Source: Bolinopsis microptera (lineage: Eukaryota > Ctenophora > Tentaculata > Lobata > Bolinopsidae). From it: DNA of 64,000 bases. Location of the stretch: NCBI RefSeq assembly GCF_026151205.1, contig NC_087074.1, positions 18,675,240 through 18,739,239 of the forward strand. Reading direction: 5' to 3'. This document shows, in pieces, positions 4,001 to 64,000 of this stretch (position 1 is the stretch's first letter; every line of letters starts with the position of its first letter). Position numbers and translations under genes: made by a program. Below the pieces are notes generated by a model. The model worked only from the letters and a program-made list of their open reading frames with translations, was not told the origin of the DNA and made no database searches.

Positions 4001-7000
4001 TATAACTGGAGAGATGTATTTGTTTCTTTGTCCCAAGCTTCATTTTACTAAGTGGTTTCCAACCCAACAATTAATCAGTGTGGTTTAAACAACTAAAATA
4101 TGGTCGGAAATGGTTGGTTATTTCTCAACTGATTTCTAATTAATAAAGCTATTGATTAATAGTATTTCTAGCTGAAAAGAGCGTCATGATTTGGATCCAT
4201 ATCCTTACCAAGTCCCAAATAAGAAATTTAAACCTAAACCGATTGCAAAGCTACAGAAACTAATATTATTTTAAAAATAAGTAAATTTACTTACAATAAG
4301 TTCAGATCAGCCTTCTTTTTCATGCTCCGTTAGTCTTATCTATCATCTTCTAGAGACCCATTATAGCTATGAAGGTGTAGAATAATCAGTATTTTTAAAT
4401 CGAGCGAATAAAAACTTACTTCAAAGATCTATAATAATTGAATTTGTTATTTTTAACTGATTGTTCTTTTACAGAGAGTAAAATCGAGGAGCCCAAAGCA
4501 GTGTTCGACGAGCCTAAAAGTGAGGAAGTAAATGAGGAGGAACCAGTGAAGGAGAACGGTGGGTAGATTTATAATATTGTGTTCATCCTTTAGTTACTCG
4601 TTTATGCTTATAAGGTTGCTCAGCAAATCATAGAAGCCCACAAACTCAAATTCAAATTTTATTACAAGCTCATAACCGATTATGATGGAAAACAATAAAT
4701 TAATGGACAACAGCAAATTGACATTACATACTTCAGGTGAAGCCGCTGCCGAAGAGATCTCAGAAGAGCCAGCCACCGAAGAGGCTTCAGAAAAATCAGC
4801 CGCCGAAGAGGCTTCAGAAGCACCAGCCGCCGAAGAGGCTTCAGAAGAACCAGCTGCTGAAGAGGCTTCAGACAAACCAGCTGCTGAAGAGGCTTCAGAC
4901 AAACCAGCTGCTGAAGAGGCTTCAGACAAACCAGCTGCTGAAGAGGCTTCAGAAGAACCAGCTGCTGAAGAGGCTTCAGACAAACCAGCCGCCGAAGAGG
5001 CTTCAGAAGAACCAGCTGCTGAAGAGGCTTCAGACAAACCAGTCGCCGAAGAGGCTTCAGAAGAACCAGCTGCTGAAGAGGCTTCAGACAAACCAGCCGC
5101 CGAAGAGGCTTCAGAAGCACCAGCCGCCGAAGAGGCTTCAGGAGAACCAGCTGCTGAAGAGGCTTCAGACAAACCAGCCGCCGAAGAGGCTTCAGAAGAA
5201 CCAGCTGCTAAAGAGGCTTCAGAAGAACCAGCTGCTGAAGAGGCTTCAGAAGAACCAGCCGCCGAAAAGGCTTCAGAAGAACCAGCCGCCGAAGAGGCTT
5301 CAGAAGAACCAGCCGCCGAAGAGGCTTCAGAAGAACCAGCTGCTGAAGAGGCTTCAGAAGCACCAGCTGCTGAAGAGGCTTCAGAAGCACCAGCTGCTGA
5401 AGAGGCTTCAGAAGCACCAGCTGCTGAAGAGGCTTCAGAAGAACTAGCTGCTGAAGAGGCTTCAGAAGCACCAGCCGCCGAAGAGGCTTCAGAAGAACCA
5501 GCTGCTGAAGAGGCTTCAGAAGAACCAGCTGATGAAGAAGCTTCAGAAGAGCCAGTCGCTGAGGAGGCTTCAGAAGAACCAGCCGCCGAAGAGGCTTCAG
5601 AAGAACCAGTCGCCGAAGAGGCTTCAGACGAACCAGTTGCTGAAGAGGCTTCAGAAGAACCAGCTGCCGAAGAGGCTTCAGAAGAGCCAGCTGCAGAAGA
5701 GGCTTCAGAAGAACCAGCTGCCGAAGAGGCTGTAGTAGAGGTAAGTTATGTTTCTAAAACTAAAGGCCAATTTTTAAGCGGCTAAATTGTCTTTATTCGG
5801 TTGAAATGATAATTTTGAATTCATGAAACCTTAGGTTGAAGATCATTATCCACAGTTACACTGCTTAGTAGCGCTCACAGTTAATAGATAAAGTCGTATC
5901 ATATTTCTATACTAGAGTATGTATAATAGTGCTGATTAGGAGCCAGGAAGATTACCGATCTAAATAGTTTCGCCTCAGACTAAAGACTGGCGAATAGTAA
6001 AGTACACATCATTTGCCATTATTTTAATTGAACATATTAAGTTTTTGTTCTCAGAATGGGTTGACTAAAGTACAGTTTAACAGAACAAAAGCATGCCTGG
6101 CGTAAAATTACTGCGACGCGAAACATGTCTTTACTTGGTGATTTCTTTATAGTAAAATGCTGCCTAACTGTGAGTTGCATTGTTTTTGTCACTTTTGTAG
6201 TCGGCTCCTAAGTGACTCTGGTCTTTGGTCGATGAGTACCAGAACAGTTTCTCTTTCCTCTGAGGAGGAGGAGGAGAGCGTTATCTGCTGCGAATATTGT
6301 GTGGGTTACAATTAACATAATTATAGTTATACCCATTATAATGAACTCACACTGGTCAATTAAGAGTAGAGAAATTTCTAATATTTTTCATGTCACCTGT
6401 TTCCATACAGTTATACAATGAAACCCCGATTTACCGTGGAGTTCGGGGGAAAGGAGAAAGCCGCGGTATATTGAAGACCGCAGCAAGTCGGGGTTTTGAT
6501 TGTTCTCATCAAATTAAACATTATACATGTTAAGCTCCCATTAAAGGGGAGGAAAATAGCCGCGGTATATCGGAGTTTGCAGTAAATCGGGATTTTATCG
6601 CAATTTCGCCACATACGAAGCCATGCACTGCATACACAAGCCATCATGTTTACAAAATCACATTTGACAACCAACTAATCTCTCAATATTTCAGGACGAA
6701 GCCGCAGCGGAGGAAGCAGCACAAGAAGAGACTGCACCTGAAGAGGGTGAGGTAGTAGCAGAAGAGGAGGCAGCACCTGAAGAGGGTGAGGTAGTAGCAG
6801 AAGAGGCGGCACCAGAAGAGGAAGAAGTAGCTGCAGAGGAAGAACCAGCCGCCGAGGAAGAATCACCAGCAGCTGAAGAAGAAGCAGCCGTTGAGGAAGA
6901 ATCACCAGCAGCTGAAGAGGAAGCAGCCGAAGAGGAAGAAGCAGCTCCACTTGAGAATGGAGATAATCATGCAGCTGAGAATGGGTCATCTGGAGAGAAG

Positions 7001-7210
7001 TCTGACATAGAGGAGGAGGTTGAGGATATAAAAATGAGGCTGGACCGACTGGAAAGTGATCAAGGAGCGTTGCAGGACAACGTTAACGACCTCAAGACCA
7101 AGTTCGAGGACGGCAGAGTGACCTCGCCGACTAAAAAGAGTCCCGGCAGCAGCGATATCGTGGGCCCCTCAATCCCCATGTCAAACCTGAGGGCTATGTT
7201 CGGAAACTGA
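1099..7210 (+). CDS. Acidic Glu/Ala/Ser/Pro repeat protein with C-terminal coiled coil (five exons)
   Basis: Exons read as 1099-1141, 3155-3439, 4475-4558, 4737-5740 and 6695-7210. Every junction is GT-AG and the phases agree (1,1,1,0), giving 643 residues and TGA at 7208-7210. Exon 2 encodes a compact globular segment rich in Trp and Gly (motifs KWSWAHDG, GVKWCEGERQGGWEV), perhaps a small beta domain. Exon 4 is about 36 copies of a 9-residue unit, EEASEEPAA, encoded by a 27-bp tandem repeat. Exon 5 continues Glu/Ala-rich, then gives a short heptad-like helix (EEVEDIKMRLDRLESDQ) and a polar tail. No signal peptide or membrane segment is visible. The very acidic low-complexity core suggests a disordered cytoplasmic or cytoskeletal protein. 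I do not recognise the family; the exon structure is well supported, the function is not. Confidence 0.8.
2027..2749. mobile_element. MITE-like element with inverted ends in intron 1
   Basis: The left end (2027) is a G6 run followed by TATCCAATGGTGAAAAATGG. The right end is its near-perfect inverse (CATTTTTCACCATTGGAAA then C6, to 2747). TATGAT directly flanks the left end (2021-2026) and recurs at 2750-2755, so a 6-bp target duplication is likely. The body contains a 42-bp tandem array (2331-2565). No transposase ORF is present. The ends share the CCAATGG...AAAATGG core with the MITE inside the satellite near 10.3 kb, suggesting one family. Confidence 0.7.
2331..2565. repeat. 42-bp tandem repeat inside the MITE
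   Basis: About 5.5 units of 42 bp, each beginning GGYGAGWAAGGTACAT and ending TTTTGGTGAACAT. Because 42 is divisible by three, the minus strand stays open and shows a false 14-residue repeat protein. Confidence 0.9.
4746..5730. repeat. 27-bp coding minisatellite (exon 4)
   Basis: About 36 tandem copies of GAAGAGGCTTCAGAAGAACC plus AGCTGCT, varying mainly at GAA/GAC/GCA and at CCC/TGC within codons. Units differ in subfamily order (for example runs with GACAAACCA between 4869 and 5070), the signature of repeated unequal exchange. Most substitutions keep the acidic/Ala/Ser/Pro character. Confidence 0.95.
6405..6600. repeat. Possible degraded MITE in intron 4
   Basis: Two related blocks, GAAACCCCGATTTACCG near 6420 and the inverse-like GCAGTAAATCGGGATTTT near 6580, with a third half-copy near 6480-6496 (GCAGCAAGTCGGGGTTTTGA). 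This resembles the terminal repeats of Tc1/pogo-type MITEs, but no target duplication could be fixed. Confidence 0.35.
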
Positions 7211-8058: not shown

Positions 8059-11000
8059 TCATTTTATCGAAAACACACCATCTTTCAAATTTATTTCTTG
8101 TATAGTGGCCGTTTCTTCTGCAGATTTTGAGTCCCTCTTGAGTCCCGAGCAATCATTTACAACACCAGAATGTCCTATATCAAATGGGACCAGAAGTTCC
8201 GCGATGTTTGAAGATGTAAGGTTGTCAGGGTTACTACTCAGACTGTCAAGGTTACTACTCAGGCTGTCAGGGTTACTACTCAGGCTGTCAAGGTTACAAC
8301 TAACTGTTGGTGGCTGCTCAGGGTCAGACGAGTTGTAGGCGGTAGAGTTAAGCAGTGATTCAAACTTTCCAGAGAAATCTTTCTGTGGGTTACAGAATAT
8401 AAAGAGGTTTATCAAACCCCAAATCCTAGGCTACCAGATATCAAAAACTTTCTGGTAATTATATTAACTGGAATGTATGCAGATCAATTAACTAGCACAC
8501 TAAACCACGCGGATGTCATTTTAAGAATGAAGCGTGATTGTACCTGAGTAGTTCGGAGGAGCTTGTTGATACCCTCCACGTTGGAAGGGAGTATAGGTCC
8601 CGTTAAGTGCAGGTAATTAACCACATCCATTGTACCATCGTCTTGTCGGGCATGCGAACTACCGCACTTAACCTGTAATGGAACATGTGAATACATAGAG
8701 TAGGGGGGAAATGAATGTGGACAATGGAGCGCTATAATGGCTTATACGGGTCATGGGAATTGTCTTACAACATAAATTCTATTTAAAACCACGATCTTAC
8801 TTATAAGTTTAAATATGAATTTATCTTCCACTCTGTGGAAATGCCCACTTTCACAGAGATCTCTCACGAGGAAGCTCACAACAGAAAGTTAAACAAAACG
8901 AAAAGTCAATCTCTGTCCCATTTTCAAATATGAAAATTTCTGAACACACATTTGACAGATTGGATGGGATTTTTGCCCAAAGACCAATTAGTCAGTTAAT
9001 TGACGATGTTATGAAACCAAATTGAGGTACTGGAAGTCAAAATCACGAAGAAAATTGAAAAATCATATTGTCCCAAACTCTGTCCCATTTTCAGTTTTTC
9101 ACGATGAAATTTTCAGGACCGAAATTTTACAGTTTTGACTGAATTAATCACCCCCAACCAATTAGTCAGTCAACTATAGACCCCATACGACACGATTGAG
9201 GTGCTGGAAGTTTGATTTCGGTCCAAGGAAGCTCACAGCAGAAAGTTTAACAAAACGAAAAGCCATACTTTTCAATCTCTGTCCCATTTTCAAATATGAA
9301 ATGAAATGAAAATGAAATGAAATAAAGCATTTTTATCCCGCTTATATCAACAATCCAAATAAAAATAAAGATTGCCGATGTCAAACCGGCTGGCCTATGA
9401 ATATACCCCAAACTAAGATAATCAGTTAATGAGAATGATATTTTTAAAAAAAATCCAAAACCAAATTACTTATTGACATTAAAAGTTAGTATAGCAACGG
9501 TAAAAAAACAACTTAAGGATGTATATCATTAAACATTATTATAAATCGTTCACTCCACTACCTTGTCCATACAACAAATTTTACCACTTCTGATATAATA
9601 ATGTTTATCTGTGTCTTCTTTGGCAATCTGTTTCATCTCTAAGACCAACTGTTGATGGATAGTTCGTTCCTCAGGTGATCGGTCCGGAGAAATGAAAACA
9701 GTTTTATGACGTGGAATCAGTCTCAGTTCTTTGGCTTTCACTAATATCTGATGGACTGTACTTGAATTTTCAAAAGAAACTTTAACCGGTCTAATCTTTA
9801 TAGCTAACTTCTTCCCAACCCGGACAGCTTCGAAGTGTGGCTTTTCGTCAATCTGCTGAAACATCTCGCCAACTTCATGACTCAGATTCTCTTCACTAAT
9901 CTCCTCGAAACCAAATATTAACACATTCTTAGTTCGATCCTTCTGTACAACCTTTTTCAAGCTCTCTTCTGTGAGTACAGGTGCGGCTGAGAAAATTTCT
10001 AAACACACATTTGACAGATTGGATGGACTTTTTGCCCAAAGACCAATTAGTCAGTTAATTGATGATGTTATGAAACCAAATTGAGGTACTGGAAGTCAAA
10101 ATAAAGAAGAAAATTGAAAAATCATATTGTCCCAAACTCTGTCCCATTTTCAGTTTTTCAAGATGAAATTTCCAGGACCGAAATTTTACAGTTTTGACTG
10201 AATTTCTCACCCGCAACCAATTAGTCATTTGAACTATAGACCCCATAGGGGTGGCCAATGGCATAAAATGGCATAAAATGGCATAAAATGGAGAATATTT
10301 CTATGCAGAAAATGGAAAAACCTATGAGTAATTCTCCATTTTCTTCATTTATGCCATTGGCCCCCCCCCACCCCATACGACACGATTGAGGTGCTGGAAG
10401 TTTGATTTCGGTCGAAGGAAGCTCACAGCAGAAAGTTTAACAAAACGAAAAGTCATACTTTTCAATCTCTGTCCCATTTTCAAATATGAAAATTTCTGAA
10501 CACACATTTGACAGATTGGATGGACTTTTTGCCCAAAGACCAATTAGTCAGTTAATTGATGATGTTATGAAACCAAATTGAGGTACTGGAAGTCAAAATC
10601 AGGAAGAAAATTGAAAAATCATATTGTCCCAAACTCTGTCCCTTTTTCAGTTTTTCAAGATGAAATTTCCAGGACCGAAATTTTACAGTTTTGACTGAAT
10701 TTCTCACCCGCAACCAATTAGTCATTCAACTATAGACCCCATACGACACGATTTAGGTGCTGGAAGTTTGATTTCGGTCGAAGGAAGCTCACAGCAGAAA
10801 GTTTAACAAAACGAAAAGTCATACTTTTTAATCTCTGTCCCATTTTCAAATATGAAAATTTCTGAACACACATTTGACAGATTGGATGGACTTTTTGCCC
10901 AAAGACCAATTAGTCAGTTAATTGATGATGTTATGAAACCAAATTGAGGTACTGGAAGTCAAAATCAGGAAGAAAATTGAAAAATCATATTGTCCCAAAC

Positions 11001-14000
11001 TCTGTCCCATTTTCAGTTTTTCAAGATGAAATTTCCAGGACCGAAATTTTACAGTTTTGACTGAATTTCTCACCCGCAACCAATTAGTCATTCAACTATA
11101 GACCCCATACGACAAGATTGAGGTGCTGGAAGTTTGATTTCGGTTGAAGGAAGCCCACAGCAGAAAGTTTAACAAAACGAAAAGTCATACTTTTCAATCT
11201 CTGTCCCATTTTCAAATATGAAAATTTCTGAACACACATTTGACAGATTGGATGGACTTTTTGCCCAAAGACCAATTAGTCAGTTAATTGACGATGTTAT
11301 GAAACCAAATTGAGGTACTGGAAGTCAAAATCAGGAAGAAAATTGAAAAATCATATTGTCCCAAACTCTGTCCCTTTTTCAGTTTTTCAAGATGAAATTT
11401 CCAGGACCGAAATTTTACAGTTTTGACTGAATTTCTCACCAGCAACCAATTAGTCAGTCAACTGTAGACCCCATACGACGCGATTGAGGTGCTGGAAGTT
11501 TGATTTCGGTCGAAGGAAGCTCACAGCAGAAAGTTTAACAAAACGAAAAGTCATACTTTTCAATCTCTGTCCCATTTTCAAATATGAAAATTTCTGAACA
11601 CACATTTGACAGATTGGATGGACTTTTTGCCCAAAGACCAATTAGTCAGTTAATTGATGATGTTATGAAACCAAATTGAGGTACTGGAAGTCAAAATCAG
11701 GAAGAAAATTGAAAAATCATATTGTCCCAAACTCTGTCCCATTTTCAGTTTTTCAAGATGAAATTTCCAGGACCGAAATTTTACAGTTTTGACTGAATTT
11801 CTCACCCGCAACCAATTAGTCATTCAACTATAGACCCCATACGACACGATTGAGGTGCTGGAAGTTTGATTTCGGTCGAAGGAAGCTCACAGCAGAAAGT
11901 TTAACAAAACGAAAAGTCATACTTTTCAATTTCTGTCCCATTTTCAAATATGAAAATTTCTGAACATAAATTTGACAGATTGGATGGACTTTTTGCCCAA
12001 AGACCAATTAGTCAGTTAATTGATGATGTTATGAAACCAAATTGAGGTACTGGAAGTCAAAATCAGGAAGAAAATTGAAAAATCATATTGTCCCAAACTC
12101 TGTCCCATTTTCAGTTTTTCAAGATGAAATTTCCAGGACCGAAATTTTACAGTTTTGACTGAATTTCTCACCCGCAACCAATTAGTCATTTGAACTATAG
12201 ACCCCATAGGGGTGGCCAATGGCATAAAATGGCATAAAATGGAGAATATTTCTAAGCGCTTATAACTAAGAAGTTTTGGTCACATGTTAAGTATCAATCT
12301 AACTCCTGCCGTATTCCTAATTGTGTTAGTTATTCTGGACAGCTTCGGTTCAAACCCAAAGATCAAGCTGAACTTTTCAATTCTTTCTTTTATAACCAGT
12401 TTTCGGATCCTTCACTTTATGACACTGACATCTCTTATGTCAATGATGTTGATTTTGATATTGACTTCGATCATCGGGATGTTCGTAAGCTTCTTTCAAA
12501 TATTAATTCAAATAAAGCCCAGGGACCAGATGGCATACACGGTAAAATTCTAAAAAATTGTTCCGTAGGTTTAGCTTACCCTCTAACATGCATTTTTCGT
12601 GGATCCTACAACAGCGGCTACATTCCACAAGAATGGAAACTTGCAAATGTTGTCCCAATATTTAAGAAAGGTAAGAAAAGTGAGGTTGAAAACTATAGAC
12701 CAATATCCCTTACTTGTTTAGTCATGAAAGTTTTTGAGCGCATTGTTAAACGTAAACTGCTTTCTTTGACAAGTACCCTTCTTGATCCCAGGCAGCATGG
12801 TTTTCTAGAGCACAAGTCATGCACAACCAATATGGTTGACTTTTGTGATAGCCTGGCATTGTCTCTTAACGAAAATATTATCAATCATGTTGTGTATTTT
12901 GATTTTGCTAAGGCATTTGATTCTGTAAATCATGATATCCTTCTTCATAAGCTAAAGACCTTATATAACATTGATGGTACACTTCTCAAATTTCTTACCA
13001 ATTACCTTCAAGGCCGTTACCAAAGAGTGGTTATTGGTAATGAGATGTCATCTACCCTCTCAGTTAATTCTGGTGTCCCCCAGGGCTCTATCCTTGGTCC
13101 CTTACTTTTTGTATTGTTTATCAATGATATTCCTCTTGGCCTTTCGGATAATACTGATATTGTTTTGTATGCCGATGATACAAAAATCTGGCGTAAAATA
13201 CATTCATCTTCTGATAACACTAATTTACAAATGGATATAGACTATCTCTCTGACTGGGCACTAAGAAACAAAATGCGATTCCATCCAGCAAAATGTAAAG
13301 TGCTTATTGTTTCAGGAAAACCATCTTTATCTCCTCCATTCGCATATAATCTTGATGGCTTTCCTCTTGTGTATGTAGAGTTAGAAAAAGATCTTGGAGT
13401 CGATGTTACTCCTAAGCTAAGTTGGAATAGTCAGTGCGACAGAATTTATACTAAGGCCTGCCAACAACTTGGTATGGTCAGAAGAAATGGCCATATTGTC
13501 ATTGATCAGAAACGTCGCCGGGCGCTTTACCTTTCCCTGGTTCGTAGCCAATTCGAAAATTGTTCCATAATCTGGCGCCCTTGTAATAAATCACTTAGTG
13601 ATAAATTAGAAAGTCTCCAAAAGAGAGCTATTAAATGGATTCTGTCTGAAGAGGGCCGCAGTTATCCACCTGAGCAATATGTCAAAAAGTGCAAGCTTGT
13701 CGACATTCTCCCTTTGTCTCAAAAGTTTGACTTGAATGATTTTATTTTTTTCCACAGAGTTCTGAACAATTTAATTCCTGTATCGCTGCCTCTCTCTTTA
13801 TATCAGGGCACTTCTCGACTAAGACGTTGCCACCTCGACAGTCTGTCTATTGTGTCATCAATTTTACCTAAGTTAAGTCAGAATTCACACACCATATGTA
13901 CCTCAAATAGCCCACTGGCAAAATCATTTTTCTACAGAACACATATACTGTGGAATGGACTCCCTTTACAGGTAAGACAGATTGTGTCTACTAGTCTTTT

Positions 14001-17000
14001 CAAAGCTGAGGTCACTAAGCATCTATGGAAATGTTTATTAGATAGTGAAACAACAGTCTAGCCAAGTCTCTTTGCTCCCCATATTATTATTTTTTGTTTT
14101 ATTAAGTTTTTTTATCTACCTTCCTATACTTTCAACATCATATCACACTTCACCCGCACACCTTCTCACACATTAATGACCATATCAGACCTGTATCTAA
14201 TGTATCTGGAATTTGACGTATGAAATACCAATTTTGACACTATATCCACAGTTATTCACCATGGATTTGTTTGTTATTAAATAGTTTTTCATAAATTTTT
14301 GGATTTAGATTAATTCGATGTAATGGGTCCAAGTTACTGCGGACATAGTTCACTATGTGTTTACCGTGTTTGGGTGCCCATCATAGTTTACAGATGGGGG
14401 CGATATTTTGAACGATTCTATTTTATATTCATCTATTGCTGTACTCTGTAAAATTTGAAAAGTATTTAATAAAAAATGCAGAAAATGGAAAAACCTATGA
14501 GTAATTCTCCATTTTCTTCATTTATGCCATTGGCCCCCCCCCCACCCCATACGACACGATTGAGGTGCTGGAAGTTTGATTTCGGTCGAAGGAAGCTCAC
14601 AGCAGAAAGTTTAACAAAACGAAAAGTCATACTTTTCAATCTCTGTCCCATTTTCAAATATGAAAATTTCTGAACACACATTTGACAGATTGGATGGACT
14701 TTTTGCCCTAAGACCAATTAGTCAGTTAATTGATGATGTTATGAAACCAAATTGAGGTACTGGAAGTCAAAATCAGGAAAAAAATTGAAAAATCATATTG
14801 TCCCAAACTCTGTCCCATTTTCAGTTTTTCAAGATGAAATTTCCAGGACCGAAATTTTACAGTTTTGACTGAATTTCTCACCCGCAACCAATTAGTCATT
14901 CAACTATAGACCCCATACGACACGATTTAGGTGCTGGAAGTTTGATTTCGGTCGAAGGAAGCTCACAGCAGAAAGTTTAACAAAACGAAAAGTCATACTT
15001 TTCAATCTCTGTCCCATTTTCAAATATGAAAATTTCTGAACACACATTGACAGATTGGATGGACTTTTTGCCCAAAGACCAATTAGTCAGTTAATTGATG
15101 ATTTTATGAAACCAAATTGAGGTACTGGAAGTCAAAATCAGGAAGAAAATTGAAAAATCATATTGTCCCAAACTCTGTCCCATTTTCAGTTTTTCAAGAT
15201 GAAATTTCCAGGACCGAAATTTTACAGTTTTGACTGAATTTCTCTCCCGCAACCAATTAGTCATTTGAACTATAGACCCCATAGGGGCGGCCAATGGCAT
15301 AAACCCCATAGGGGCGGCCAATGGCATAAAATGGCATAAAATGGCATAAAATGGCATAAAATGGAGAATATTTCTATGGAGAAAATGGAAAAACCTATGA
15401 GTAATTCTCCATTTTCTTCATTTATGCCATTGGCCCCCCCCCACCCCATACGACACGATTGAGGTGCTGGAAGTTTGATTTCGGTCGAAGGAAGCTCACA
15501 GCAGAAAGTTTAACAAAACGAAAAGTCATACTTTTCAATCTCTGTCCCATTTTCAAATATGAAAATTTCTGAACACACATTGACAGATTGGATGGACTTT
15601 TTGCCCAAAGACCAATTAGTCAGTTAATTGATGATTTTATGAAACCAAATTGAGGTACTGGAAGTCAAAATCAGGAAGAAAATTGAAAAATCATATTGTC
15701 CCAAACTCTGTCCCATTTTCAGTTTTTCAAGATGAAATTTCCAGGACCGAAATTTTACAGTTTTGACTGAATTTCTCACCCTTAACCAATTAGTCATTCA
15801 ACTCTAGACCCCATAGGACACGATTGAGGTGCTGGAAGTTTGATTTCGGTCGAAGGAAGCTCACAGCAGAAAGTTTAACAAAACGAAAAGTCATACTTTT
15901 CAAACTCTGTCCCATTTTCAAATATGAAAATTTCTGAACACACATTTGACAGATTGGATGGACTTTTTACCCAAAGACCAATTAGTCAGTTAATTGATGA
16001 TGTTATGAAACCAAATTGAGGTACTGGAAGTCAAAATCACGAAGAAAATTGAAAAATCATATTGTCCCAAAGGGCGAGTACATGTTCAGGAGGCTGAAGA
16101 GACGCTTGTAACGCCTTCTTGTTACCCCCCTTTGAGGGCCCCGAATTATTTTCTGAACGAACGCTCAAAAATAACCGAGAAATCGACCTTCTTATTAACT
16201 CATTTTGATGACCGTTTCTAACCTAAAATTATCACCTCCCCGCCAGTATCCACATCTATTAATCAGTTAATTGATGATAGTATGAAACCAAATTGAGGTA
16301 CTGGAAGTCAAAATTCCGAGGTTATTTTTTGGACAGATATATCACAGTTTTTACTGAATTTTGATACACTAACCGCACCGATTAGTCTATAATATAAAGT
16401 CTATAATTTGTAAAAACTATAGAATATAAATTATAGATGCTATAAGGATTAACTAAGCGGATTAACTAATTATAAATTGTGAACAACCAACTTGAAATTT
16501 TGGGGAAGCACTTCAATTATCACACCAAATGTGTCTAGAAACTTTGAAGTTTTTTAAACTAACTATATTATATACAGTACTAGATTGAACTTGTCGGGTT
16601 GTGACTAACCTGATTGTGTTTGATAGTTCCTCCCACAAATACAGAGGGAGAGAGAAGAGTGGGGGGCACCCCCGCTAATTCCCCTACAGTTGGGATCAGA
16701 CTCTTGTTGTTGAGCAGGAAGTTGAACACACCCTGTACCTGACTTCCTTGTACTCGTACCAGCGATCTTATACTGTGATCTAGAAAATATTTGGAATATT
16801 TACTTGTATTAACCGCATGATATACTTTGATACGGTGGGGGTAAACCGTTCTTTACAAATTACACGTGTTCTTTACACGTGTCTTCTGGAATTTCAAATG
16901 GTCGCTGCTGGTAAATTAAAGGCTGTCACGTGTCAGGTGACTCAACTCCCCATTATGACATGGCTATCGATTCATTATACAATTCATTAACATGAAGTTT

Positions 17001-35174: not shown

Positions 35175-35703
35175 ACCAATCTGAAAACTGAGAGTCTCAT
35201 CACTAGCACTTTGGACCACACTAGCTCCTAGTCGTGAAAACTGAGAGCCTCATCACTAGCACTCTGGACCACACTAGCTCCTAGTCGTGAAAACTGAGAG
35301 CCTCATCACTAGCACTTTGGACCACACTAGCTCCTAGTCGTGAAAACTGAGAGCCTCATCACTAGCACTTTGGTCTACACTAGCTCCAAGTCGTGAAAAC
35401 TGAGAGACTAATCACTAGCACCTTGGACCACACTAGCTCCTAGTCGTGAAAACTGAGAGCCTCATCACTAGCACTTTGGACCATACTAGCTCCTAGTCGT
35501 GAAAACTGAGAGCCTCATCACCAGCACTTTGGACCACACTAGCTCCAAGTCGTGAAAACTGAGAGCCTCATCACCAGCACTTTGGACCACACTAGCTCCA
35601 AGTCGTGAAAACTGAGAGACTAATCACTAGCACTTTGGACCACACTAGCTCCTAGTCGTGAAAACTAAGAGCCTCATCACTAGCACTTTGGACCACACTA
35701 GCC
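35175..35703. repeat. 53-bp tandem array starting in a terminal exon
   Basis: About ten units of 53 bp (core ACTAGCACTTTGGACCACAC, then TAGCTCCTAGTCGTGAAAAC). The rightmost unit is coding: it supplies the last 17 residues and the TAG of the minus-strand gene at 35652-40077. The other units lie in its 3' UTR or flank. Confidence 0.95.
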
Positions 35704-38700
35704 CAATCTACACTGATGTTCACTCTTCTGATCCATTCTGTAATCCGCTCAAACAACTCGTCTGAGACGTAGGGGTGTCCGTAAGAGCTGGAGTGGTAGG
35801 TGAAAGGGGCGTGTCTGTAACTCGTATCTATCTTGTATATCTGTGAAGGGTGAGATGTCAATACTTAATACAAAATTATAATAAGATGACTGAAAGTTGG
35901 AAGAGGAATCAAGGTTGATCTGTGAGTAACGTTCATCAAGAACATGTTTCCACCCTGATTTTAACAATGTCCCCAGGTCCTCTTACCCTCTCTTGCAGTG
36001 AAGCTAGTCCGTATGCAGTGAGTCTAGTCGGCAGTGCCTCACTGTCCAGTCTGACAGAGCGGCGCGAGTGAAGGGGAGTTTGGAGGTCTCCTGCAGTTGC
36101 AGCTGGTATGTGCGGTAACGAGTGGGTCACCTGAAACTACACTCATTCAGAAACTGCCCGTGGGATATGTCTTTAGGAGGAAGACTTGAGTTTGTACGAC
36201 AGGCTATAAGACACAAACTACTTGAGGTAAAATGTAATAAACTTCATAATTTAACTTTATGGATAGTAACTACTACACTACTACACTACTACACTACTAC
36301 ACTACTACACTACTACACTACTACACTACTACACTACTACACTACTACACTACTACACTACTACACTACTACACTACTACACTACTACACTAATACACTA
36401 CTACACTACTACACTACTACACTACTACACTACTACACTACTACACTACTACACTACTACACTACTACACTACTACACTACTACACTACTACACTACTAC
36501 ACTACTACACTACTACACTACTACACTACTACACTACTACACTACTACACTACTACACTACTACACTACTACACTACTACACTACTACACTACTACACTA
36601 CTACACTACTACACTACTACACTACTACACTACTACACTACTACACTACTACACTACTACACTACTACACTACTACACTACTACACTACTACACTACTAC
36701 ACTACTACACTACTACACTACTACACTACTACACTACTACACTACTACACTACTACACTACTACACTACTACACTACTACACTACTACACTACTACACTA
36801 CTACACTACTACACTACTACACTACTACACTACTACACTACTACACTACTACACTACTACACTACTACACTACTACACTACTACACTACTACACTACTAC
36901 ACTACTACACTACTACACTACTACACTACTACACTACTACACTACTACACTACTACACTACTACACTACTACACTACTACACTACTACACTACTACACTA
37001 CTACACTACTACACTACTACACTACTACACTACTACACTACTACACTACTACACTACTACACTACTACACTACTACACTACTACACTACTACACTACTAC
37101 ACTACTACACTACTACACTACTACACTACTACACTACTACACTACTACACTACTACACTACTACACTACTACACTACTACACTACTACACTACTACACTA
37201 CTACACTACTACACTACTACACTACTACACTACTACTATCAACTCGACATAAGACACGAAGTTAAGGTTACCTTGTACTGCTTTTGCTTGAATTTAACTG
37301 AGTTAAAGGATGGCTTCTTAGTTGAGATTCCGGTCTTGCCATTGTAATCGGTCGTATTTTTCCCCTGAAAATTAAAGTGAAATTGAAGGCAATGGAAAAC
37401 TCGAACCCATATGGCAGCCTTTTAGTTTTATATAACTTTCTCTAAGTCTCAGTTTAAGCTTATGTTCTGCAATAACATTGTGAACCACACAATTGCATTT
37501 GCTTACGAAATTATGCAACATATAAATGAAATATGATGTTAGTATTAAATTATGGTAAACAATAGGTCTGTGATTTAATAGAGTGTCTACTTTCTGGATT
37601 GTAAGATTTGAATAAAATCATTGAATACTTTAGAAAAGTGCGTTATGCTTGATAAATCAAGCAATCTAATGAGTGAACCATCTGTCAGTGTCAACAAAGT
37701 AGAGGTTTGGACGGAAAACAGCGGGAAGAAAAAAATGTTAAACATCTTAAAAGATGAATGGTTTTTGACAGCGGTATGTTTAGTAATTAGTTATAAGATG
37801 AATTTGAATAAGCTATGATTTGAGCAGTGTGTTTGGTAGTAAGATGAGCGAGGTACCTGTGAAGCTAGGATTTGAGCAGCGTGTTTGGTAGTAAGATGAG
37901 CGAGGTACCTGTGAAGCTAGGATTTGAGCAGTGTGTTTGGTAGTAAGATGAGCGAGATACCTGTGAAGCTAGGATTTGAGCAGTTTGTTAGGTAGTAAGA
38001 TGAGCAAGGTACCTGTGAAGCTAGGATTAGAGCAGTGTGTTTGGTAGTAAGATGAGCGAGGTACCTATGAAGCTAGGATTTGAGCAGCGTGTTTGGTAGT
38101 AAGATGAGCAAGGTACCTGTGAAGCTAGGATTTGAGCAGCGTGTTTGGTAGTAAGATGAGCAAGGTACCTGTGAAGCTAGGATTTGAGCAGTGTGTTTGG
38201 TGGTAAGATGAGCGAGGTACCTGTGAAGCTAGGATTTGAGCAATGTGTTTGGTAGTAAGATTAGCGAGGTACCTGTGAAGCTAGGATTTGAGCAGTGTGT
38301 TTGGTAGTAAGATGAGCAAGGTACCAGTGAAGCTAGGATTTGAGCAGTGTGTTTGGTGGTAAGATGAGCGAGATACCTGTGAAGCTAGAATTTGAGCAGT
38401 ATGTTTGGTAGTAAGATGAGCAAGGTACCTGTGAAGCTAGGATTTGAGCAGTGTGTTTGGTAGTAAGATGAGCGATGTACCTGTGAAGCTAGGATTTGAG
38501 CAGTGTGTTTGGTGGTAAGATGAGCGAGGTACCTGTGAAGCTAGGATTTGAGCAATGTGTTTGGTAGTAAGATGAGCGAGGTACCTGTGAAGCTAGGATT
38601 TGAGCAGTTTGTTTGGTAGTAAGATGAGCAAGGTACCAGTGAAGCTAGAATTTGAGCAGTGTGTTTGGTAGTAAGATGAGCAAGGTACCAGTGAAGCTAG

Positions 38701-40077
38701 AATTTGAGCAGTGTGTTTGGTAGTAAGATGAGCGAGATACCTGTGAAGCTAGAATTTGAGCAGTATGTTTGGTAGTAAGATGAGCAAGGTACCTGTGAAG
38801 CTAGGATTTGAGCAGTGTGTTTGGTAGTAAGATGAGCGATGTACCTGTGAAGCTAGGATTTGAGCAGTGTGTTTGGTGGTAAGATGAGCGAGGTACCTGT
38901 GAAGCTAGGATTTGAGCAATGTGTTTGGTAGTAAGATGAGCGAGGTACCTGTGAAGCTAGGATTTGAGCAGTTTGTTTGGTAGTAAGATGAGCGAGATAC
39001 CTGTGAAGCTAGGATTTGAGCAGTGTGTTAGGTAGTAAGATGAGCAAGGTACCTGTGAAGCTAGGATTTGAGCAGTGTGTTTGGTAGTAAGATGAGCAAG
39101 GTACCTGTGAAGCTAGGATTTGAGCAGTGTGTTTGGTGGTAAGATGAGCGAGGTACCTGTGAAGCTAGGATTTGAGCAGTGTGTTTGGTAGTAAGATGAG
39201 CAAGGTACCTGTGAAGCTAGGATTTGAGCAGTGTGTTTGGTAGTAAGATGAGCGAGGTACCTGTGAAGCTAGGATTTGAGCAGTGTGTTTGGTGGTAAGA
39301 TGAGCGAGGTACCTGTGAAGCTAGGATTTGAGCAGTGTGTTTGGTAGTAAGATGAGCGAGGTACCTGTGAAGCTAGGATTTGAGCAGTATGTTTGGTGGT
39401 AAGATGAGCGAGGTACCTGTAAAGCTAGGATTTGAGCAGTGTGTTTGGTAGTAAGATGAGCAAGGTACCTGTGAAGCTAGGATTTGAGCAGTGTGTTTGG
39501 TAGTAAGATGAGCGAGGTACCTGTGAAGCTAGGATTTGAGCGGTGTGTTTGGTGGTAAGATGAGCAAGATATTTCTTCAGCTCAATTGTTCTCAGTTGAA
39601 CGGATCGTTCCTGATCTGTTCTGATCTGGGAACTGATCTTCTTCAGAGTGAACTTCTTCTTTATTCCCACTTTGGACAGGTCAAACCTCTCTCCTCCCTT
39701 TTTACCTGCCTGATAAATGTTATCAAATGTTAACTATTACGTTACACTATAAGTATAAGTGTAACCATGATAACTGTGGAAGCTATTAAAGCTATTACAG
39801 TATTACATTTACTATGGGCATATTTCAGATTGCTGGTGTTGACAACGATCATTATACATAATGTTGTATAATACATTCCTCTAACAATCAAATTCGTCTT
39901 AAATAAAACAGCAGTTAGCAAAGTCACCTTTTTAGTAACCTTTTGATTTGGGACTACATCTCGTTGTTTTTGTTCTGTGTTTGTTTTGGGAGACGGATCA
40001 CGTGTGCTAGTCACGTGATCACGTGTGCTAGTCACGTGATCTAGCGCTACAGTTAAGCTCTGATATTTCTCCTTCAT
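35652..40077 (-). CDS. Unrecognised basic protein, five exons
   Basis: Minus-strand exons in coding order: 40077-39928, 39709-39521, 37364-37272, 36130-35987 and 35840-35652. All introns are GT-AG in phase 0 and the product is 254 residues. The N-terminus has a tandem 7-residue repeat (DHVTSTR twice, from a 21-bp duplication rich in CACGTG). Exon 2 is strongly basic and helical (GIKKKFTLKKISSQIR, LRTIELKKYLAHLTTKH). The last exon has an aromatic-rich stretch (YRHAPFTYHSSSYGHPY) and an amphipathic helix (DELFERITEWIRR). No signal peptide or membrane segment. I do not recognise the family. Consistent phases and clean open exons argue that it is a real gene. Exon 2 and the last exon both end in units of long tandem arrays. 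Confidence 0.72.
36270..37237. repeat. 8-bp microsatellite (TACTACAC)n, about 970 bp
   Basis: About 120 near-perfect copies with a single obvious variant near 36392 (TAATACAC). It lies in the intron between exons 37364-37272 and 36130-35987. All six frames avoid many stops, which makes a false HYYTTTLL protein on the plus strand. Confidence 0.98.
37822..39560. repeat. 52-bp tandem array, each unit carrying a copied 5' splice site
   Basis: About 33 units. On the minus strand each unit reads ...CCTAGCTTCACAG|GTACCTCG..., identical or nearly so to the 3' end of exon 39709-39521 and its donor. The last 35 bases of the exon are thus the first unit and the intron is filled with copies. Sub-variants (AGCGAG/AGCAAG, TAGTAAG/TGGTAAG) alternate in blocks, indicating unequal exchange. 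Confidence 0.95.
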
Positions 40078-41080: not shown

Positions 41081-41600
41081 GATGTGGATACTGGCGGGGA
41101 GGTGATAATTGTTTGTTTACCATTTACAATTTAGGTCGAGTACATGTTCAGCAGGCTGAGGAGGTGATAATTGTTTGTTTACATTTTCGGGTGAGTACAT
41201 GTTCAGCAGGCTGAAGAGACGCTTGTAACGTCTTCTTGTTACCCCCCTTTGAGGGCCCCGAATTATTTTCTGAACGAAAGCTCAAAAATAACCGAGAAAT
41301 CGACCTTCTTATTAACTTATTTTGAGGACCGTTTATAGCCTAAAATTGCACGAAAAATCGATTTAGCTAGGTTTCAGAACCTATAAACACTTCCTTATCC
41401 CTCAAAATTGATGTTCCATAGTTTAGAATGCGAGCAACAAGCAACATATATTTTGATCCTTCGGTTCTACAGCTCTTGACCTAGGGCTGAAACCGAAAGA
41501 TCGAGGCAATCCTCACCTTAACTGATCGAACTTGAGCGAAGAGCAGAGTACGACAAAACACAGCAGGTAAGTAACTCATTTTGGTGACTGTTCCAGGTGT
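41080..41600 (+). repeat. ~510-bp dispersed repeat, copy left of the zinc-finger gene
   Basis: Starts AGATGTGGATACTGGCGGGG, has the block GTACATGTTCAGCAGGCTGA twice, then ACCCCCCTTTGAGGGCCCCG, and ends GTAAGTAACTCATTTTGGTG. An inverted copy lies at 45970-46483 and a deleted copy at 16070. Confidence 0.85.
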
Positions 41601-60373: not shown

Positions 60374-62443
60374 CTAATTCCCGGTAACTTTGCTCCTATT
60401 TAACCCAATAATCCTCGCTTTAAATTTCTCGATATAAATATCTTCAAACATGTTAAGTTCCTCTCTACTACATTGTTTAATAATACCCAAATTAAAATTG
60501 CTTAATTTCTCAGAAAGTTTGTCTTGGTGCATTTCAGATATGTGCATGGAAAGGGCCGATTTAGTGTAACAACCTGGTTTAAAAGCTGCCCTGTGGCTGT
60601 TCATTCGTGTGCTTAAAGTCAACCAGGTTTGGCCGAAATAAAAGCCACTATCGCACAGTTTACATTGGGCTACATAAATCACGTTTTCATTACTACAGTT
60701 AAGCCGCATGTCAATTCTGATAATCTGTTTGTTAACTGTCAAAGTACCATTTGCTGTTCCACTAGTTAGCTTGCATGTAAGACAGCGAGGTCTATTGCAA
60801 GCTTGTGATGTTATGTCCGCCGTATTGATGGAGTTGGGTGCTGAGTCAGCAGGTGTTGTCGCAAATCTCCGCCTCTTGAACATTTCATCTGCGATGTTGT
60901 TGTCCCTTCTGTGAGCTATTGTTATGGATACCTGCTTACCAATGATATGCTCAATAGTTTGTTTCTTATCTTCAAGGAAGCTCCTGATTTCGTTGAGTTC
61001 CTTGCAGTACTGTGTTGAGAGGATCAAGTTGCAGTGTTCACTATTTGGCATAGACTCATTGGTATTCTCCCTCGGTGTAAGGCGTTGATCTCGGTTAACC
61101 AGACTAGCTTTGGTTAATGCTGCCTTAAGTTCTGCATCCCTGTATCCGCTTTTCTTGAAGTCTCCCATAATCTCTTGTGCTGCTTCCATAAAAGTGTCCT
61201 CATCTGAGCATATGGTTTTTGTTCTTAGAAGTTGTGAGTAAGGAACGCTTTTGAAGACATGAGGAGGATGGTGACTGTTCCTCTGTAGAAAAGATCTGTT
61301 ATCAGTAGGTTTCTTGAACAGAGAGGTAGCCAGAGTTACTGGTGTGTCGTGTTCTGGATCTGTTATCCTGACCTTAACATCCAAGAAGCTTAGCTCTCTA
61401 CCTCCATCCCCTGTGAACTCTATCCCGTAAGTTGATGACTCACTGTTGAGTTTAGAGACGAAATCCTCAAATTCCTCTTTCGTACCTCTCCATATACCGA
61501 AAATGTCGTCGATATACCTTTTCCATAATCTGATGAGTACATCCCACTCTGGTATTTTAGATTTGAGATGTAGTTTGAGAAATTTGAGGAATGTGTCAGC
61601 CAAAGGTCTAGATATGGAGCCGCCTGTTGGTACTCCTTTGATGGCTTTGAAATACATGCCTCTGTACTCTAGAGTGGAGTTTTGAAGACAGAATTCGATG
61701 CATGGGAGTATGCCGCTTCTGATTTCAGGGGTTAGGGTTCTATCCTCTTCCAGTGCTGCTTTGACTGACTGTAGAACGATGGTCTGGTCCATGCTCGGGT
61801 AAAGGGCTTTCACGTCTAGAGTATAGAGTAATTCGCCTTCTTCTATTCCGACTTCTTTTATTTGGTGTAGGAAATCGTTTGTATCCTTGATGTATTCATC
61901 ACTAGCATAGTTACGTGAAACTTGGCCGAAGTGGTGAGCAAGGAATTGTTCAAGCCTGGTTGTTGGAGATTGGGTAAGAGCGTGTACTAATCTCGATGGG
62001 GGAATGGTCCTGTCTAGGATTTGTTGGGGGTCTAGTTTGTGGATCTTGAATAGTGGGTATGGTATTCCTGTCCTTGTCTTAAAACAGGTTTTTCTCATTT
62101 TCCCTCCTCTTTCTGTGTACCCCGTAATGGTTTCTAAAATCTTGTTGTTGAAAGAGCCGTTATTGATTAGATTTTCAATAAGCAACTTCTGGTTTTTAAG
62201 AATTCCATCATTAGGGTCTTCTGGTAAACTGCTGTAACCATCTGATTTGCTAAGTTCAGCTCTTATAGCTTTATCCACATCCTGGGGGTTCATCACAAGG
62301 ACACTTCCTCCTTTATCAGCTCTTGTGAAAACCAATTTACCAAGGCGCATCATGCTCTTACACCAGTTTTGGCCTCTAGTTTCCGCTTTTGTCAGGTTGG
62401 GGGTGGGTCTGCTCAGTACTATTGTATCTACAAGTTGTTTCAT
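60374..62443 (-). CDS. Penelope-like element: reverse transcriptase plus GIY-YIG endonuclease (5' truncated)
   Basis: 689 uninterrupted codons from ATG at 62443. Reverse transcriptase: TRADKGGSVLVM (about residue 41), GIPYPLFKIHKL (125), LLYTLDVKALYPSM (206, catalytic Asp), GVPTGGSISRPLADTFLKF (270), RYIDDIFGIW (310, catalytic DD) and LSFLDVKV. A Cys cluster (ACNRPRCLTCK) follows, then a GIY-YIG nuclease (VIYVAQCKLCDSGFYFGQTW, with the downstream LSTRMNSHR). This is the usual order in Penelope-like elements, which are not LTR or LINE elements and are related to telomerase in their RT. Compared with the plus-strand copy, the first ~150 residues are missing: sequence identity stops at 62485. 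Confidence 0.93.
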   Translation of the reverse strand: MKQLVDTIVLSRPTPNLTKAETRGQNWCKSMMRLGKLVFTRADKGGSVLVMNPQDVDKAIRAELSKSDGYSSLPEDPNDGILKNQKLLIENLINNGSFNNKILETITGYTERGGKMRKTCFKTRTGIPYPLFKIHKLDPQQILDRTIPPSRLVHALTQSPTTRLEQFLAHHFGQVSRNYASDEYIKDTNDFLHQIKEVGIEEGELLYTLDVKALYPSMDQTIVLQSVKAALEEDRTLTPEIRSGILPCIEFCLQNSTLEYRGMYFKAIKGVPTGGSISRPLADTFLKFLKLHLKSKIPEWDVLIRLWKRYIDDIFGIWRGTKEEFEDFVSKLNSESSTYGIEFTGDGGRELSFLDVKVRITDPEHDTPVTLATSLFKKPTDNRSFLQRNSHHPPHVFKSVPYSQLLRTKTICSDEDTFMEAAQEIMGDFKKSGYRDAELKAALTKASLVNRDQRLTPRENTNESMPNSEHCNLILSTQYCKELNEIRSFLEDKKQTIEHIIGKQVSITIAHRRDNNIADEMFKRRRFATTPADSAPNSINTADITSQACNRPRCLTCKLTSGTANGTLTVNKQIIRIDMRLNCSNENVIYVAQCKLCDSGFYFGQTWLTLSTRMNSHRAAFKPGCYTKSALSMHISEMHQDKLSEKLSNFNLGIIKQCSREELNMFEDIYIEKFKARIIGLNRSKVTGN

Positions 62444-64000
62444 TTCTGTTTTCAGTTCTTCGATTCCTGGTTGTTGAAATGGGGGATACTCCTATTTCAC
62501 CTACTGATCAGCCTCTTTATCAGAAAAGAGCCGAACGTTCTGCTAGCCAGCAGGCGTATAAAAAACGATGCCGGAAACACTATAAACATCGTAAAGCAGC
62601 TGAAAAGAAGGAACGTTTGGCTGCTAGACTGAAAACTATAGATGACTCCAACATGGTCATAAACTTTTCAGACATCACCCTACCACCAGAAGCGAAGCTG
62701 TTCCTTGCCAAAGGCACAGGTTTCGTCAGTTCCAGAAAACCGGATAGGGACAAACTGCACTACGATACCAGGGAGCTGATAAGAAATATAGCATGGAGAG
62801 CACATCATAACACGAACAACGATGAGGAAAATCGGGAAGAGCAAGACACCGTACCTACAGATCTATTTCCTAAAGCACTCTACATCAAGCGCACAGGTTG
62901 GCCCCCATTTCAACAACCAGGAATCGAAGAACTGAAAACAGAAATGAAACAACTTGTAGATACAATAGTACTGAGCAGACCCACCCCCAACCTGACAAAA
63001 GCGGAAACTAGAGGCCAAAACTGGTGTAAGAGCATGATGCGCCTTGGTAAATTGGTTTTCACAAGAGCTGATAAAGGAGGAAGTGTCCTTGTGATGAACC
63101 CCCAGGATGTGGATAAAGCTATAAGAGCTGAACTTAGCAAATCAGATGGTTACAGCAGTTTACCAGAAGACCCTAATGATGGAATTCTTAAAAACCAGAA
63201 GTTGCTTATTGAAAATCTAATCAATAACGGCTCTTTCAACAACAAGATTTTAGAAACCATTACGGGGTACACAGAAAGAGGAGGGAAAATGAGAAAAACC
63301 TGTTTTAAGACAAGGACAGGAATACCATACCCACTATTCAAGATCCACAAACTAGACCCCCAACAAATCCTAGACAGGACCATTCCCCCATCGAGATTAG
63401 TACACGCTCTTACCCAATCTCCAACAACCAGGCTTGAACAATTCCTTGCTCACCACTTCGGCCAAGTTTCACGTAACTATGCTAGTGATGAATACATCAA
63501 GGATACAAACGATTTCCTACACCAAATAAAAGAAGTCGGAATAGAAGAAGGCGAATTACTCTATACTCTAGACGTGAAAGCCCTTTACCCGAGCATGGAC
63601 CAGACCATCGTTCTACAGTCAGTCAAAGCAGCACTGGAAGAGGATAGAACCCTAACCCCTGAAATCAGAAGCGGCATACTCCCATGCATCGAATTCTGTC
63701 TTCAAAACTCCACTCTAGAGTACAGAGGCATGTATTTCAAAGCCATCAAAGGAGTACCAACAGGCGGCTCCATATCTAGACCTTTGGCTGACACATTCCT
63801 CAAATTTCTCAAACTACATCTCAAATCTAAAATACCAGAGTGGGATGTACTCATCAGATTATGGAAAAGGTATATCGACGACATTTTCGGTATATGGAGA
63901 GGTACGAAAGAGGAATTTGAGGATTTCGTCTCTAAACTCAACAGTGAGTCATCAACTTACGGGATAGAGTTCACAGGGGATGGAGGTAGAGAGCTAAGCT
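61387..64000. repeat. Inverted repeat formed by the two Penelope-like copies
   Basis: Positions p and 125387-p are complementary from 62485/62902 outward to 61387/64000, with no length change, so the arms are at least 1099 bp. The spacer is 62486-62901 (416 bp). The junction is at a GGGGG/CCCCC run. Both arms encode the same protein wherever compared. Confidence 0.93.
62479..64000 (+). CDS. Second Penelope-like element, plus strand, continues past the window
   Basis: Open from ATG at 62479 to the window edge (507 codons, no stop). Residues 1 to about 150 are the N-terminal region missing from the minus copy: basic (KKRCRKHYKHRKAAEKKERL), then NFSDITLPPEAKLFLAKGTG and FVSSRKPDRDKLHYDTRELI, as in Penelope-like proteins. 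From 62902 the sequence matches the minus-strand copy. The ATG at 62479 lies inside the end of the inverted copy, so the original start may be different. GIY-YIG would lie beyond 64000. Confidence 0.9.
   Translation, partial: MGDTPISPTDQPLYQKRAERSASQQAYKKRCRKHYKHRKAAEKKERLAARLKTIDDSNMVINFSDITLPPEAKLFLAKGTGFVSSRKPDRDKLHYDTRELIRNIAWRAHHNTNNDEENREEQDTVPTDLFPKALYIKRTGWPPFQQPGIEELKTEMKQLVDTIVLSRPTPNLTKAETRGQNWCKSMMRLGKLVFTRADKGGSVLVMNPQDVDKAIRAELSKSDGYSSLPEDPNDGILKNQKLLIENLINNGSFNNKILETITGYTERGGKMRKTCFKTRTGIPYPLFKIHKLDPQQILDRTIPPSRLVHALTQSPTTRLEQFLAHHFGQVSRNYASDEYIKDTNDFLHQIKEVGIEEGELLYTLDVKALYPSMDQTIVLQSVKAALEEDRTLTPEIRSGILPCIEFCLQNSTLEYRGMYFKAIKGVPTGGSISRPLADTFLKFLKLHLKSKIPEWDVLIRLWKRYIDDIFGIWRGTKEEFEDFVSKLNSESSTYGIEFTGDGGRELS

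Follow-up and report, generated by a model that had tools for sequence, protein, structure and literature searches.

A predicted exon end and its splice donor repeated 32 times into the following intron in Bolinopsis microptera, with similar arrays elsewhere in the genome

Introduction

Tandem repeats that contain the splice donor of the exon they follow have been described in human genes. In intron 18 of ABCA7, a 25-bp variable-number tandem repeat (VNTR) lies directly after exon 18, with the exon 18 donor as its first two bases, and it comprises 23.7 units in the reference genome (PMC5954066). One unit is retained in 2 ± 1% of transcripts independently of array length, which shifts the frame and introduces a premature stop, whereas longer arrays are accompanied by more exon 19 skipping and by lower expression, a drop that the authors do not blame on decay; the VNTR also bears on Alzheimer's risk (PMC5954066). 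A second case is human IFI6 (6-16, G1P3), a gene whose minisatellite carries several donors (Turri et al. 1995, as related in citing papers) and in which two downstream repeat units serve as donors and give rise to three mRNA species (PMC4526556).

The 52-bp array that we describe here in the ctenophore Bolinopsis microptera belongs to this known kind, namely, a VNTR that holds an exon's own donor, and what is new is its recurrence within one genome. The ABCA7 and Bolinopsis arrays are alike in that tandem units after an exon include that exon's donor and in that a retained unit shifts the frame to a premature stop. They differ in that the ABCA7 unit starts at the donor and is intronic, whereas 48 of the 52 nt of the Bolinopsis unit are exon sequence; furthermore, transcripts and length variation were measured for ABCA7, whereas the Bolinopsis array is known from the sequence of one assembly. 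In IFI6, tandem repeats at an exon end likewise supply donors, although several mRNAs have been reported there and the array described here is known from its DNA sequence. The IFI6 unit is reportedly 12 bp long and frame-keeping, in contrast to the 52-bp frame-shifting unit in Bolinopsis. Among the matches listed in a search of the open-licence literature, there were no exon-end donor arrays in ctenophores or genome-wide. While a single such array would be a curiosity with human precedents, many arrays in one genome would constitute a natural experiment on the choice among identical neighboring donors, which has so far been studied mostly with artificial constructs.

Results and discussion

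The array begins on the end of a predicted exon

In the 64-kb window (the whole stretch of DNA that was analyzed), TRF identified a period-52 array at 37810-39565 with 33.8 copies and 94% matches. Together with a unit-by-unit reading, this placed the array at 37810..39568 on the minus strand, where unit 1 is followed head-to-tail by complete, intronic units 2 to 33 and then by a truncated unit 34. Unit 1 (39568-39517) consists of 48 nt from the 3' end of a predicted exon, designated exon A, and GTAC of the intron, such that the exon end reads ...CTAGCTTCACAG|GTACCT on the minus strand. The donor of predicted exon A (GT at 39519..39520) is part of the array's first unit, and the later units repeat it at 39468 and then each 52 bp to 37856, giving 32 intronic donors and, with exon A's own, 33 near-identical donors in total. 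Among these, CAGGTACCT was found 23 times, CAGGTATCT four times, CTGGTACCT three times, CAGGTACAT twice, and TAGGTACCT once, and GGT was present at all 33. An earlier note on this DNA had described about 33 repeats of an exon end and its 5' splice site, in agreement with these counts; its 52-bp unit spanning the exon end and donor was also recovered with the same period, except that the exon share is 48 nt rather than 35.

The array is far beyond chance. A genome search with the 52-bp unit (264.65 Mb; the search scores best candidates only) returned 17 matches, all of them inside the array and none at another locus. A satellite family was considered as the source of the unit and rejected, since this search matched the unit at a single locus only.

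AG|GT junctions are found in 30 of the 33 units, exon A's own counted, which would be in keeping with recursive or stepwise splicing, where each CAG|GT would act as both acceptor and donor and the array would be removed in 52-nt steps or jumps. By eye, however, the unit lacks a good pyrimidine tract before the CAG, another AG lies eight nucleotides upstream, and an intron of 52 nt would be very short for an animal; we consider this route very unlikely.

The array-bearing intron (37365..39520, minus strand) contains ~445 bp of non-array sequence followed by the acceptor TTTTCAG|GGG. Most of the unit is exon sequence and AGGT occurs in it, as would be expected if the intron had been born through the duplication of an AGGT-containing exon segment, but the unit is not carried on into the next exon, exon B, the ~445 bp of other intron sequence lies between the two, and the last copy of a 102-copy array described below runs into ordinary intron. 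Such a birth therefore appears extremely improbable. A diverged stretch past the truncated unit 34 (37740-37809, TTCATCTTA...ACTAAACATACCGCTGTCAAAAACC) was observed to resemble the 52-bp unit by eye, as if an older edge copy had survived.

The predicted gene carrying the array

On the minus strand, exon A (39521..39709; 189 nt, ending in phase 0, last 48 nt in array unit 1) is followed by predicted exon B (37272..37364; 93 nt, phase 0), exon C (35987..36130; 144 nt, phase 0), and exon D, which is coding to the stop (35652..35840, with the end computed from the 225-aa length). The putative first coding exon MSYLPAVFCRTLLFAQVRSVK (41517..41579, minus strand; donor AAG|GTGAGG, phase 0) was predicted as the top-scoring stretch from an ATG to a donor in the interval from 41738 to exon A; its peptide is one that we take to resemble a mitochondrial presequence. 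Given that the lengths of exons A, B, and C are all multiples of three, that these exons have GT-AG ends and a single frame that continues into exon D, and that the joined exons form a 225-aa open frame (via donor 1 only), the reality of the predicted exon is supported. When the genome was queried with exon A or with exons C-D, only this gene was matched. Pfam matches to the predicted protein were all below the cut-offs, and no PDB match was better than E 0.5. Since no Pfam or PDB match was significant, the gene is a prediction that rests on the consistency of its frame and splice sites. A match to bL9 with an E value of 0.65 was rejected as not significant.

Exon A could also belong to a pseudogene, or its open frame could lie beside a minisatellite by chance, as might be suspected from its weak donor and from the finding of no homologue. 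However, exons A to C have proper splice ends and share a frame that runs on into exon D, and unit 1, the exon copy, differs from the array consensus at three positions, all of which are synonymous in the exon A frame. In addition, an equal layout was found on an exon with further exons after it and on another whose Sushi match is sub-threshold (see below), and it is quite unlikely that exon A is not real.

The four commonest unit variants (exon-derived columns 3, 15, 24, and 36; 37815-39568) all correspond to third codon positions, a pattern that was noticed post hoc. These third-position variants look as if they had entered the array from a constrained exon copy. We count this third-position bias against a neutral array, for which the expectation would be chance only.

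The same gene carries further repeats. An 8-bp array of 121 copies (36269..37236) occupies the next intron, 35 bp past exon B. A second array on the minus strand (53 bp by 9.8 copies, 35182..35702) starts within the last codons of exon D, with the last ~51 nt of this exon, including the stop codon, falling inside the first 53-bp unit. One gene thus has two exon-seeded arrays, the 52-bp array at exon A and the 53-bp array at exon D.

Only the first donor preserves the reading frame

Reading through the array closes the frame quickly, with 52 mod 3 = 1 and a stop that ends 96 nt past donor 1 (~39425). We rejected a coding VNTR on these grounds, namely, that the period is not a multiple of three and that the frame closes 96 nt past donor 1. 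Donor 1 is the only one of the 33 that keeps the full 225-aa frame: donor 2 leads to a shifted frame with a stop in exon B, and donors 3 to 33 lead to a stop within the array. When all 33 donors were counted, the 32 other than donor 1 gave a stop that precedes the last exon junction by 50 nt or more. When scored with a donor matrix, the GTACCT donor reached 6.3, relative to 7.0 for exon B, 8.9 for exon C, and 11.5 for the first exon; it has neither A at +4 nor G at +5 and is, by this matrix, weak to modest in strength.

We also asked how variable the donor is relative to the rest of the unit, using the 32 complete intronic units and leaving out unit 34. The AGGT columns contained 3 variants, a level that was not exceeded in 29 of 52 four-column windows (39 of 52 when the truncated unit 34 was included). 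The donor GT was invariant, as were 28 of 52 two-column windows, and the nine-base donor contained 10 variants, with 35 of 52 windows as low. In the 102-copy array (101 intronic units), 33 of 46 eight-column windows varied no more than the donor columns. In neither array are the donor columns better conserved than the bulk of the unit, and the extra donors show no clear sign of maintenance, nor of purging.

These results bear on what the earlier note had proposed for the array. Its statements that each unit shifts the frame, with a closing stop near 39425, and that the full protein comes from the first donor only were confirmed, the latter by a premature stop from 32 of 32 later donors. Its claim of a usable donor in each unit held insofar as GGT is present at 33 of 33 positions and must be tempered by the weak score of 6.3 and the lack of A+4 and G+5. 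A selected role along the lines that it suggested, either as a tunable decoy or in producing isoforms, did not find support, as the donor columns are ordinary, the donor is weak, and donors 2 to 33 would lead to truncated proteins only; a functional reading of the array as a decoy is possible but unsupported.

If splicing were tuned in this unproductive manner, the number of competing donors would set the share of transcripts that decay, array length would set the output, and selection would keep the array. The early stops that all 32 extra donors produce, 50 nt or more before the final exon junction, are consistent with such a system, as are the intact GGT at 33 of 33 donors and, in ABCA7, the lower expression and greater next-exon skipping that accompany longer donor arrays (PMC5954066). 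On the other hand, the ABCA7 authors exclude unit retention plus decay as the reason for lower expression (PMC5954066), and in Bolinopsis the donor columns are not specially conserved, the array donor is weak, and similar arrays recur on other, unrelated exons. We therefore regard tunable unproductive splicing as unlikely.

It seems probable to us instead that a minisatellite by chance began on an exon-intron junction and was tolerated, with splicing occurring mostly via the first donor. A 52-bp segment straddling the junction would have been duplicated repeatedly, leading to minisatellite expansion, with the first copy kept as functional exon end and donor and the 32 other complete copies becoming intron. 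Exon A is presumably transcribed, and donor 1, as the dominant donor, would mostly be joined to exon B, with the entire array being spliced out; rare use of a later donor would produce a premature-stop transcript that would be degraded. The toleration of the array would follow from this preference for the first donor, and selection presumably does not maintain it. An effect of array length on expression is possible, albeit with frame-shifted donors as an unlikely route, given that in ABCA7 one-unit retention is independent of length while expression and next-exon skipping depend on it.

Similar arrays occur on other exons

The clusters inspected in the 265-Mb, 13-chromosome genome bring the number of exon-end arrays to at least eight, including the 52-bp array, with ~4 to 102 copies and periods of 52, 46, 40, 41, 54, 44, 38, and 23. 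The period is not a multiple of three in seven of the eight, and an in-frame stop falls within two units in all eight. The seven other arrays (L038/L066/L039, L052, L046, L067, L069, L070, and L071) lie in other genes and have units of 23 to 54 bp, in which the terminal 22 to 45 nt of a predicted exon and its donor (CAGGTRAGT, AAGGTRAGT, or AAGGTGAGC) are repeated into the intron. The 52-bp array is one of several alike, as expected in a minisatellite-rich genome.

The 102-copy array (L038, C3:5823838-5828481) has a 46-bp unit in which 40 nt from the 3' end of a predicted exon are followed by GTGAGT, and ordinary intron and further exons lie downstream of the array. Its donors are strong and of the CAG|GTGAGT type, and across the 101 intronic units the GT is intact in 98 and CAGGTGAG in 93. 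L046, the third case, has ~4 copies. The exon of L067 has a sub-threshold Sushi match (E 0.0025); the exons of L038, L046, L052, L069, L070, and L071 had no Pfam match reaching the cut-off, and their exon status rests on open frames and splice ends.

Clusters were searched for genome-wide as three donor words 30 to 60 bp apart, combining forward and reverse hits and using the backward word as a control. Hit counts, which are dominated by a few long arrays, were 780 versus 10 backward for CAGGTRAGT, 685 versus 29 for AAGGTRAGT, 1,061 versus 260 for the rotated control word GTRAGTCAG, and 505 versus 51 for a scrambled word, the last being used besides the rotated word, which keeps GTRAGT and is a poor control. 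When clusters were counted by eye among the matches listed, CAGGTRAGT gave at least 10 in ~74 Mb (C1 to C4:3.73 Mb), AAGGTRAGT at least 7 in ~26 Mb on C1, and the scrambled word at least 9 in ~113 Mb.

Exon sequence was part of the unit in 2 of the 10 CAGGTRAGT clusters (L038 and L046). In L008, L044, and L045, the array starts at a donor without a clear exon part, and no exon was recognized in four others (L006/L057/L058, L040/L059, L041/L060, and L043/L062) upon reading the sequence ahead of the first donor and listing the coding-like frames on either side. The tenth cluster, L042, lies on the acceptor side of a MoCF exon. Examination of the upstream side of the seven AAGGTRAGT clusters on C1 revealed four exon-end arrays (L067, L069, L070, and L071) and three that are not (L068, L072, and L073). 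The 10 clusters of the rotated word included the exon-end array L052 and L013, which lies at the acceptor of a WW exon; no exon was recognized in seven, among which the edges were read letter by letter for L012 only. L047, also found with the rotated word, begins ~5 nt inside the intron that follows a spectrin-like exon. Arrays that end at an exon acceptor, in mirror image of the donor arrays, were observed at L042 226-344 (MoCF domain exon) and L013 1494-1857 (WW domain exon).

Seeding on junctions appears roughly random

With minisatellites defined as arrays of period 20 to 100 and at least 5 copies, 8 were found in 14 arbitrary 10-kb pieces of the genome (57/Mb), relative to 4 in the window (62/Mb). 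In a motif-free test of low power, coding-like sequence (≥3 bits) was not enriched at array edges (10 of 60 edges versus 1,148 of 8,518 control windows). Since this test shows no gathering of coding-like sequence at the edges, junctions look like ordinary seeding places, and our reading is that seeding is more or less random, with splice junctions not obviously avoided. A general tendency of arrays toward exon edges had been an impression gained by eye from clusters selected by donor words, and it was rejected upon finding no enrichment in the low-power motif-free test.

Per length searched, donor-word arrays were commoner than control-word arrays, and all four words exceeded their backward controls, the donor words most. 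Because donor-word clusters exceed the controls, the donor arrays are more than rare leftovers, and seeding may yet be biased toward junctions. Without the exon-end arrays, the AAG cluster figure falls near that of the scrambled word, both being small numbers. A rough extrapolation from the 4 exon-end arrays on C1 and the 2 in ~74 Mb suggests ~45 such arrays in the genome for the two donor words alone.

We put forward only tentatively the broader idea that exon-end or donor arrays form a class present in dozens to some hundreds of introns, in which the spliceosome would reliably ignore up to ~100 consensus-grade donor copies just downstream of the one it uses. If this were true, donor choice would be set by order of appearance or by exon definition rather than by sequence, and array length could be a source of expression variation.

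Other features of the window

A 705-aa frame at 60374-63967, part of which is repeated inverted alongside, had no Pfam match reaching the cut-off and is presumably Penelope-like. The region at 10370-15364 contains a 601-aa reverse-transcriptase frame (12256-14061, RVT_1 by Pfam), with copies of a 365- to 366-bp tandem repeat on either side together with AATGGCATAA runs. An open frame at 4676-5785 encodes 37 copies of a 27-bp (9-aa) EEASEEPAA-like repeat, and it is followed by another acidic repeat frame at 6668-7210.
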